A stretch of 64,000 nucleotides of DNA from Prochlorococcus sp. AG-418-C09 (GTDB lineage Bacteria > Cyanobacteriota > Cyanobacteriia > PCC-6307 > Cyanobiaceae): NCBI GenBank assembly GCA_003214355.1, contig QCLS01000001.1, positions 62,001 to 126,000 on the forward strand, written 5' to 3'. A model generated the notes under the pieces. That model was not told where the DNA came from and made no database searches. It worked only from the letters and a program-made list of their open reading frames with translations. Both the position numbers and the translations under genes were made by a program. Of the stretch, positions 44,463 to 47,138 are shown piece after piece (positions within the stretch are counted from its first letter, which is position 1; each line of letters starts with the position of its first letter).

Positions 44463-44597
44463 TTATTTGATTTTCTGAGTCGCTTTTACTAAGTGACCAC
44501 CATCATGATCATCATCATCATTTGAGTAAAAGAAGATAACAAAAATCCCTAAAGATGCTATTGATATTGCTATTGATAGTGATCGAATCTCATCCAT
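44463..44597 (-). CDS. Membrane microprotein with Asp-run (family member 1)
   Basis: From ATG 44597: MDEIRSLSIAISIASLGIFV makes one helix, followed directly by YSNDDDDHDGGHLV and a basic tail, 44 residues. The longer frame from 44657 has an atypical N-terminus. The layout of helix, then an acidic Asp/Gly run, then a short tail is shared with genes at 45695 and 56881. Confidence 0.65.
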   Translation of the reverse strand: MDEIRSLSIAISIASLGIFVIFFYSNDDDDHDGGHLVKATQKIK

Positions 44598-44722
44598 TAG
44601 TAAATTTTTTTTTATTTTAGTATTAAACTGATTAATTGATTGTAAAATTATTGACAATTTATAAAAGAAAAGTATTTATATAGCTAATAAGCACTTACGA
44701 TAAATATAAATTATTTTTTATT

Positions 44723-45694: not shown

Positions 45695-45874
45695 ATGGAA
45701 AATATGTCTGAAACATCCTCTATATCTCCAATTTTTGCTTTATTTTGGTGTTTTTACCCTATTGCTATTCTGATTTTGATTGAATTAGTTTTAGGTGGTG
45801 GATTTGATGATGATAACAATGATGACCAAGACGGTGGCATGTTAATACCAGCTTATTCAAATGTAAAGGCATAA
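45695..45874 (+). CDS. Membrane microprotein with Asp-run (family member 2)
   Basis: 59 residues. A hydrophobic helix (IFALFWCFYPIAILILIELV) runs into GGG and then FDDDNNDDQDGGMLIPAY. The acidic run and the DGG step match the genes at 44463 and 56881. A second ATG at 45704 is also possible. It is followed 8 bases later by another tiny membrane protein. Confidence 0.65.
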   Translation: MENMSETSSISPIFALFWCFYPIAILILIELVLGGGFDDDNNDDQDGGMLIPAYSNVKA

Positions 45875-45882
45875 TATTAGAC

Positions 45883-46017
45883 TTGATTTCAATTTATATT
45901 TCATTAACCCTATTAACTCTTTTATTGATTGGCTTCTTTATTTGGATTTTTAATACTACCCTTAAAGAAGGCAAAAATGCATTAGTAAAACCTAATGATC
46001 TAATAAAAAACAAATAA
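45883..46017 (+). CDS. Small membrane protein, 44 aa
   Basis: TTG start, ISIYISLTLLTLLLIGFFIW as the helix and a charged tail with KEGKNALVKPNDLIKNK. It lies directly downstream of the Asp-run microprotein and just upstream of the small-RNA array. Confidence 0.5.
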   Translation: MISIYISLTLLTLLLIGFFIWIFNTTLKEGKNALVKPNDLIKNK

Positions 46018-46133
46018 TTTAAATTCATTTGTGAGTGAGAAGACATAATTATACTTTTGATAATAAAAACTGTTTGATTATTTTGTATATATTTTTCTTG
46101 AATAATTGTTTAGAAAAAGATATTAATCTATAA

Positions 46134-46240
46134 GTAGATCTTGGGAAATCTACAATTCGCAATTTAATTTGCGATTATTCATTAGAATCCCTAAAGACCC
46201 TCCCTTACTTGGCATAGATGAGGGAGGTTTTTCTTTTTTT
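46134..46240 (+). ncRNA. Structured RNA gene A of a three-copy tandem array
   Basis: Hairpin 1 is GTAGAT-CTTGGGAA-ATCTAC (46134-46153) and hairpin 2 is TCGCAA-TTTAAT-TTGCGA (46157-46174). The unit ends in a perfect terminator, CCTCCCT...AGGGAGG with a long T run (46199-46240). A TATTAAT/CTATAAG -10-like block lies just upstream, and there is no reading frame. The layout recalls the Yfr2-Yfr5 family of Prochlorococcus RNAs, but identity is not proven. Confidence 0.8.
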
Positions 46241-46316
46241 AACCTTAGATAATGAACATTAGTTTGTATAAAATCTTTCTTGTCATTAATCATCCATTCG
46301 ATTTAAATATAATCAA

Positions 46317-46424
46317 GTAGATCAGGGAAATCTACTAGCCGTCAGCTTTGATAACTACGGTTTAATGAGAACCTCCCTTAAACCTCATTTTCTTTCTCGC
46401 AATCTTAAGAAAATGAGGTTTTAA
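46317..46424 (+). ncRNA. Structured RNA gene B of the tandem array
   Basis: TATAAT at 46308-46313 acts as a -10 box. Hairpin 1 is GTAGAT-CAGGGAA-ATCTAC and hairpin 2 is CCGT...ACGG enclosing CTTTGATAAC. A 14-bp terminator follows, AACCTCATTTTCTT pairing with AAGAAAATGAGGTT, then T residues. Hairpin 1 has the same stem as unit A, and CTTTGATAAC is shared with unit C. Confidence 0.8.
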
Positions 46425-46540
46425 ATTAATTTCAAAGAAACTTTTTAATTATTTCTTCTTTTAGATATATTAAATTAAAATTAATTCACCACTTTGTATA
46501 TTATTTACTTTCCATAAAATAAAAAGTTATTTATAAAAGA

Positions 46541-46650
46541 GTAGTAGATTTTGGGCAGATTTACTACCGTTCAGATCGGTCTTTGATAACCAGCCCTTTA
46601 ATAAAATCCTAACTACTTTTTTGTTATTTTTGTAGTTAGGATTATTTATA
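46541..46650 (+). ncRNA. Structured RNA gene C of the tandem array
   Basis: A TATAAA box precedes a 9-bp hairpin 1, GTAGTAGAT-TTTGGGCAG-ATTTACTAC, with one G-T pair. Next come ACCG-TTCAGAT-CGGT and CTTTGATAAC, then a 12-bp terminator AATCCTAACTAC...GTAGTTAGGATT. The stem sequence has drifted in paired positions relative to A and B, which suggests selection on structure. Confidence 0.78.
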
Positions 46651-46730
46651 AAAAATTTTTAAATTAATTATTTTACATTTAAATTTTCTTCTTTAAATTA
46701 ATTTTAATTATTATTATTTAGAATAATCAA

Positions 46731-47138
46731 ATGCCTAACAAATCTAAAGCTTCATCAGATATTGAGAATATTTATAATCTTTTAGAATCCGGTATTAATA
46801 AAAATAATTCCATCAAAGAATATATATTGCCAAACCCAAGGCAATGGCTTGGTGGCAGATTTTTTGCTATTTGGGTCCTCCCCATATTCCTATTAAAAAA
46901 ATTAAATCAATTTGCTAAATCATCAATATTTATAAGACCATATTCTAAGAATGGGCCCTCATATAACCGACCTGAGACTCTCCATACATCATTAAAAATG
47001 GTTTTTAAAGGATCAGATCACTTAAGATTCTTTGATCATAGATTTATTGGAATATGGGTATTACCTTTTGCGGTTACTGGAATAATATTTGAGATTTTAT
47101 TTATATCTCCTTTGAGGAATTCTTCACCATTTAGTTAA
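46731..47138 (+). CDS. Hypothetical membrane-associated protein, 135 aa
   Basis: Two internal repeats of similar text occur, WLGGRFFAIWVLPIFLL and DHRFIGIWVLPFAVTGIIFE, each a hydrophobic segment after an Arg-Phe. The remainder is polar. The repeat suggests two membrane helices produced by internal duplication. It lies just after the RNA array. Family unknown. Confidence 0.65.
   Translation: MPNKSKASSDIENIYNLLESGINKNNSIKEYILPNPRQWLGGRFFAIWVLPIFLLKKLNQFAKSSIFIRPYSKNGPSYNRPETLHTSLKMVFKGSDHLRFFDHRFIGIWVLPFAVTGIIFEILFISPLRNSSPFS

Follow-up and report, generated by a model that had tools for sequence, protein, structure and literature searches.

Three tandem units in the window, by which we mean the whole 64,000-nt stretch of Prochlorococcus DNA analysed here, follow one plan on the + strand from 46082 to 46648: an upstream box and a -10-like box are followed by a first hairpin (P1), a second one (P2), a run of CCC and finally a terminator-like hairpin. 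The units, called A, B and C, look like an undescribed family of RNAs with pseudoknotted heads, and unit C lies directly 5' of a single gene, orf137. We regard it as an even call that A and B are free small RNAs and that C would serve, in addition, as an attenuating leader of orf137.

An earlier note on this DNA had described three tandem paralogous RNA genes with -10-like boxes, GTAGAT/ATCTAC-type hairpins carrying GGG in the loop, second hairpins and terminators, and all these elements were found at the positions it gave (Table 1). The same holds for CTTTGATAAC, reported for both B and C (46346-46355 and 46581-46590). Paralogous structured units with promoter- and terminator-like ends stand, whereas the plan is more than one of consecutive hairpins: since the GGG and its neighbours are complementary to the downstream CCC in every copy, each head is a pseudoknot. 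A TTTGTATA-like box precedes GTAGAT by 51-54 nt in A, B and C, and the U-run behind the B hairpin is only three or four nucleotides long.

Table 1. Features of units A, B and C and of orf137 in the window (PK, pseudoknot helix; R1, covariance model of the B and A type; R2, covariance model of the C type).
Feature	Position	Strand	Sequence or basis
A, upstream box	46082..46095	+	TTTGTATATATTTT; one mismatch versus TTTGTATAWWATTW; 52 nt 5' of P1
A, -10-like box	46121	+	TATTAA; sequence inspection
A, pseudoknot domain	46134..46191	+	R1, E 1.2e-8 (unit A in training set)
A, P1	46134-46139/46148-46153	+	GTAGAT/ATCTAC
A, PK	46143-46146/46188-46191	+	GGGA/TCCC; loop/downstream complementarity
A, P2 hairpin	within 46154-46180	+	
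A, terminator-like hairpin and T-run	46197..46240	+	sequence, fold, descriptor
B, upstream box	46263..46276	+	TTTGTATAAAATCT; box scan
B, -10-like box	46308..46313	+	TATAAT; region conserved in 83 distinct B stretches
B, pseudoknot domain	46317..46378	+	R1, E 5.4e-14 (unit B in training set)
B, P1	46317-46322/46330-46335	+	GTAGAT/ATCTAC
B, PK	46324-46327/46375-46378	+	AGGG/CCCT
B, P2	between PK strands	+	CCG/CGG; loop holds CTTTGATAAC
B, terminator-like hairpin, short T-run	46382..46423	+	near-invariant sequence in B stretches
C, upstream box	46493..46506	+	TTTGTATATTATTT; exact match
C, -10-like box	46532..46537	+	TATAAA; conserved in 85 distinct C stretches
C, pseudoknot domain	46541..46596	+	R2, E 1.6e-16 (unit C in training set)
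C, P1	46543-46549/46559-46565	+	AGTAGAT/ATTTACT
C, PK, short P2 between strands	46553-46556/46593-46596	+	GGGC/GCCC
C, terminator-like hairpin	46605..46648	+	sequence, fold, conservation
orf137, 135 aa, directly 3' of unit C	46731..47138	+	two hydrophobic IWVLP segments

Units with their terminators folded better than shuffled sequences (z scores of -3.5, -3.9 and -3.1 for A, B and C); with the terminator left off, the values were -2.8, -1.2 and -0.5, i.e. clear for A only. As a pseudoknot is present, a nested folding program is unable to show it together with P1; for A and B, its fold of minimum energy has no P1, and the GGG/CCC helix stacks instead on a helix formed by the 3' strand of P1 and the linker. 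A descriptor of the whole plan (P1, pseudoknot, terminator), composed after the units had been seen and hence not blind, was run on both strands of the window and matched exactly A, B and C, while 200 dinucleotide shuffles gave 73 matches in total (mean 0.365 per 64 kb, maximum 4). Scanning the whole genome, strong scores were obtained at A, B and C only (R1, 5e-14 and 1e-8; R2, 1.6e-16), as is partly expected of models trained with the window units among others; the next-best scores were 0.74 (R1) and 0.026 (R2).

The earlier claim that stems change in paired positions between copies held for the pseudoknot, for P2 and, by eye, for the terminators; P1 itself varies little in A and B. An alignment of 51 distinct rows (46 of B and five of A; A4), fitted to P1 and P2 and not to the pseudoknot, was assessed by five measures, two of which gave no excess over shuffles. 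Standard pairs made up 94.2% of the named structure with the pseudoknot, compared with 39-57% for slid partners, and both sides had changed in 26 cells versus 9.9 in shuffles, related rows weakening controls of this kind. The pairs changed on both sides (4) were matched in 64 of 500 shuffles and the pair types (10) in 265 of 500, so that neither count rose above the shuffles. All pseudoknot cells with letters were paired; the variable pair was GC in 34 rows, AU in 12 and GU in four, and the AU rows may go back to one or few origins. Five P1 pairs are invariant in this alignment and thus uninformative on pairing, and in 17 of the 51 rows the remaining P1 pair does not form.

Across strains and copies the letters of the pseudoknot vary with pairing kept (AGGG/CCCU, AGAG/CUCU, GGGA/UCCC, GGGC/GCCC and UUGGC/GCCAA). 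Counted over distinct rows, four pairs form in 5/5 A rows and in 42/46 B rows, the other four B rows having GGG/CCC (among them L202, misaligned by the model); C rows form five pairs in 47/51 and four pairs in 4/51, wobbles counted. The C pseudoknot is UUGGC/GCCAA in 43 of the 51 rows and UGGGC with GCCC or GCCU in five window-like rows; of the four rows short of one pair, L012 is without the second and three window-like ones are without the outer pair. In C P2 the middle pair reads GC in 46 rows and is swapped to CG in another four (one row uncounted). In C P1, wobble changes occur in several rows and one pair is changed on both sides in the row set of window C; the C alignment marks two inner P1 pairs of L008-type rows as broken. 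Bases of the P1 loop pair 3' of P1 and this pairing is kept through compensatory change, which identifies the pseudoknot as H-type.

A conservation profile was computed from 83 distinct B and 85 distinct C stretches. Conservation was 0.94 at the upstream box (-50 to -31), dipped 5' of the -10 box (0.78 in B and 0.88 in C), stayed at 0.91-0.98 from the -10 box through the terminator and was 0.37-0.74 downstream of the latter; 5' of the upstream box the C stretches had 0.65-0.77 and the B stretches, which there contain a peptide-like frame, 0.79-0.89. Conservation bounded by the promoter region and the terminator points to RNAs of about 110 nt. In a scan accepting at most one mismatch, or a bare TGTAT, the upstream box was found 51-54 nt before P1 in 100/100 B units, 50 or 52 nt before it in 6/6 A units and 49 or 51 nt before it in 94/99 C units.

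Covariance models, the search that the earlier note had proposed for Rfam and Prochlorococcus, gave no match in Rfam and placed the family in 120 of 249 genomes of the genus with R1 (52 of 83 among those at least 90% complete). At E 0.01, R2 matched 163 of 248 genus genomes, with strong matches (E 3e-13 or better) clearly separated from those at 2e-4 and worse. When 200 genus genomes were searched at the DNA level, 132 were hit, often weakly. Strong R1 and R2 matches were confined to the window's genus when 251 genomes of the taxonomic family were scanned. Weak matches outside the genus (R1, one genome, E 0.0075; R2, eight genomes, E 0.0013-0.0078) and a recurrent 19.7-bit R2 match within it were rejected, the plan being absent by eye; the 13 weak loci inspected in this way (the own genome's included) were mostly coding-like and none had the plan. 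A pattern scan returned 93 loci, all from Prochlorococcus or uncultured Synechococcaceae and including MIT 9201, MIT 9401, MIT 9107, HNLC1 and HNLC2. The genomes that we take to be MIT9312, AS9601 and MIT9215 carry the RNAs, and those that we take to be MED4 and MIT9301 have no convincing match; from these five strains we infer that the window's genus is the high-light group. A phage origin was rejected: in viral contigs neither the B nor the C pattern was matched and none of the 18 stretches fitting the orf137 peptide pattern was confirmed as a relative, and phage records compared by blastn shared no more than short stretches (coverage at most 8%).

At the gathering score, Rfam models matched neither the units of the window nor those of three other loci (L192, L138, L224), and up to E 10 the region 45900-46800 gave eight matches, Cyano-1 not among them, which we regard as noise (the best, with E 0.029, is to a model of an archaeal sRNA and lies on the opposite strand). 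The Yfr2-5 RNAs (Cyano-1, RF01701), of which the earlier note had been reminded, are like the units small cyanobacterial RNAs with several copies per Prochlorococcus genome; unlike the units, they are matched by Cyano-1 and not by R1 or R2. Cyano-1 finds Yfr2, Yfr4 and Yfr5 in MED4 (three matches), stretches that R1 and R2 miss, and it does not match the units, so membership in Yfr2-5 was rejected and the note's suspicion of a separate family was strengthened. Further Prochlorococcus small RNAs are Yfr8-Yfr21 of MED4, several of which are only 80-150 nt long and which are mostly shared with other high-light strains only, according to PMC2518516. R1 and R2 find no homology to them: up to E 10, nothing was matched in 13 MED4 stretches holding the genes of Table 1 in PMC2518516, whose coordinates were confirmed in three of the 13 by matches to Yfr10 and Cyano-1, and at E 0.01 nothing was matched in MED4 as a whole. 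That the units are Yfr19 or another of the MED4 Yfr RNAs was rejected since the models miss their stretches; Yfr19 is also listed for MIT9301 in PMC2518516, and in the genome taken as that strain the best R1 match has E 4.5 and R2 has none at 0.01. The open-access literature covered, supplements aside, yielded no description of the family. The window also contains a Glutamine-II riboswitch (RF01704; 59932-59994, - strand, 57.6 bits), a leader RNA that is pseudoknotted like the units (PMC6698751) and whose model misses them.

Both models were run on 100 loci (sets of 20 and 80, some genomes being present twice). The order was BC in 93 loci, ABC in six and B alone in one (L151), i.e. B and C occur together in 99/100, and in the one exception the locus ends after B. 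The window itself has the order ABC, with A as an extra copy; of the six ABC loci, L029 and L211 apparently represent a single genome, HNLC1 (L215) has two R1 units and one C, and in HNLC2 (L224) the locus starts too near B to judge an A unit. Thirteen weak B rows had been removed from the R2 alignment (A5) by a rerun at E 1e-10. An orf137 of 135-137 codons follows C directly in 97/97 testable loci, 139-197 nt from the C start, a count that leaves out two loci ending before the gene (L193, L194) and pools two gene searches (L015 comes from one, L203 was placed by the other). Six orf137 frames are shorter than 137 aa, five because they run off the locus end and one (L134) with 127 aa. The adjacency was also seen in 18/18 further loci, some genomes being in both sets. 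In two loci (L137 and L222) about 1.5 kb separates B from C, and C adjoins orf137 in both; the L137 insert, between B (3882) and C (5348), carries by eye a Crp/Fnr-like regulator gene. From the C terminator to the ATG there are about 30 to 89 nt, often ~30, which are AT-rich and not conserved and in which no conserved promoter was found in the loci compared.

The product of orf137 is like a small membrane protein and has no significant relatives in Pfam, NCBIfam, PHROGs or PDB sequences. Among 15 chosen genomes, 3/3 with the RNAs have orf137 and 11/12 without a strong RNA match lack it; the twelfth (G172) keeps a broken orf137 remnant, the RNAs being gone, and another genome (G050) has both RNAs and orf137 in two copies. 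Relatives of orf137 were matched in 34 of 151 genomes of the taxonomic family, the own genus included, and none of 20 loci in other genera had the RNA 5' of the gene (opposite-strand R2 scores of 8.7 and 7.5 bits were ignored). Because the relatives in these 20 loci lack the RNAs, the latter look like a later addition to orf137 in one genus. The constant position of C next to orf137 in the loci tested, which a reading of all three units as independent RNA genes leaves aside, makes C at least as likely a leader.

From the observed anatomy, conservation, compensatory pairing and linkage to orf137 we infer transcription, termination, read-through and an influence of the pseudoknot on read-through. 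Each unit would have its own promoter and give an RNA of ~110 nt that starts near P1, folds its head as an H-type pseudoknot (GGG of the P1 loop with CCC beyond P2) and ends at its own terminator hairpin. Unit C would form the 5' leader of orf137: most polymerases would stop at its terminator and leave a short RNA, and a minority would read through to give the orf137 mRNA. Such read-through is probably what orf137 depends on, no conserved promoter lying behind C, and this argues for C as an attenuating leader. B, and A where present, would be released as free RNAs from the same kind of promoter, there being no gene directly behind them. The RNAs may control orf137. We count in favour of C as leader that the regulator-like insert of L137 separates B from C and yet leaves C with orf137, and against the model as a whole the 20 RNA-less loci of other genera, the nested folds that lack P1 (A and B), the P1 pairs that are invariant or often broken and the two pairing measures that do not rise above shuffles; the AT-rich gap may hold a weak promoter serving orf137. 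No conserved antiterminator was seen by eye in the A, B and C units, and the candidate pairing of AATGAG in the B linker with CTCATT of the terminator was rejected as it is missing in A, C and the B unit of L029. The pseudoknot itself may sense something, protect the 5' end or pair in trans.

Alternatively, all units including C might be trans-acting small RNAs that pair with distant mRNAs, with orf137 as a neighbour served by a weak promoter of its own and linked to them through joint inheritance of the cassette, an alternative that we consider possible though rather doubtful. It would account for the conserved promoter-like region and terminator-like hairpin end of each unit, for the retention of B with C in nearly all loci, mostly with no gene directly behind B, and for the conserved P2 loop and linker of B, which may be exposed. 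It does not explain why C stays directly before orf137 in both sets of loci while B can be about 1.5 kb off, nor does it fit a gap behind C that is short and variable in many strains and holds no conserved promoter.

The units could also represent a new class of pseudoknot sensor, duplicated in series to two or three copies with distinct pseudoknots, each able to end transcription, before orf137 in what are the ocean's most abundant photosynthetic cells; this we think unlikely. Quite unlikely, too, is a reading in which the pseudoknot binds a ligand as an aptamer and the units, as tandem riboswitches of a new class, control orf137. The H-type pseudoknot with an extra hairpin resembles the class II preQ1 riboswitches, and in preQ1-II and SAM-II, as in C, bases of the P1 loop pair downstream in a leader before a gene; the linker is conserved within B and within C, C leads one gene, and in A and B a different fold is in competition with P1. 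However, unlike preQ1-II and SAM-II, the units have no Rfam match or ligand link, and A and B directly precede no gene. Moreover, A, B and C share little beyond P1, the pseudoknot and one short motif of the linker, the single associated gene has no assigned function, the family was not found outside one genus, and no conserved alternative pairing with the terminator was seen. That the conserved stretch is instead a mini-ORF with incidental structure (ATG AGA ACC TCC CTT stop in many B units, the stop being TAA, TGA or, once, TAG four codons after the ATG) is very improbable and was rejected, because this five-codon frame, which overlaps the 3' strand of the pseudoknot (e.g. in L002, L023 and L177), is not kept across units by eye (window A, window C, the B unit of L029 and several C units have no ATG there, window B and L013 no stop, and the C unit of L018 has a shifted frame) and the pseudoknot changes are compensatory.

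According to PMC2518516, regulatory proteins are few in Prochlorococcus, which appears to rely on RNA regulators, and the small-RNA set described there was mapped in MED4. As MED4 lacks the family, an RNA cassette conserved in many further high-light strains, among them those taken to be MIT9312, AS9601 and MIT9215, may have been overlooked. An environmental Prochlorococcus RNA study mapped its reads to MED4 and NATL2A (PMC7368042), and such mapping would miss any family absent from both. Unit C and orf137 offer a defined leader-and-gene pair for testing RNA control in Prochlorococcus.

Several further observations concern the surroundings of the units. The orf137 remnant of G172 (locus L229) lies beside an apparent tRNA fragment, and tRNA-like remnants appear by eye 3' of orf137 in L149 and L138, which suggests a genomic-island setting for the orf137 locus. 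The insert gene of L137 is preceded by a palindrome, GATAATGAGAAT...ATTCTCATTATC, which looks like a Fur box. A 98-aa frame lies just 5' of unit B in L192 and L138; with E 7e-64, the one in L192 belongs to the NCBIfam entry 'cytochrome b559 subunit beta, long form', and the 60-aa frame that follows it there resembles the N-terminal half of the cytochrome b559 match, far below the curated cut-off. Where PsbF has its haem-ligand His, Asn seems to stand in the 98-aa protein. In the window itself, two small ORFs (44463-44657 on the - strand and 45695-45874 on the + strand) share similar acidic stretches followed by DGG and perhaps encode related small proteins.
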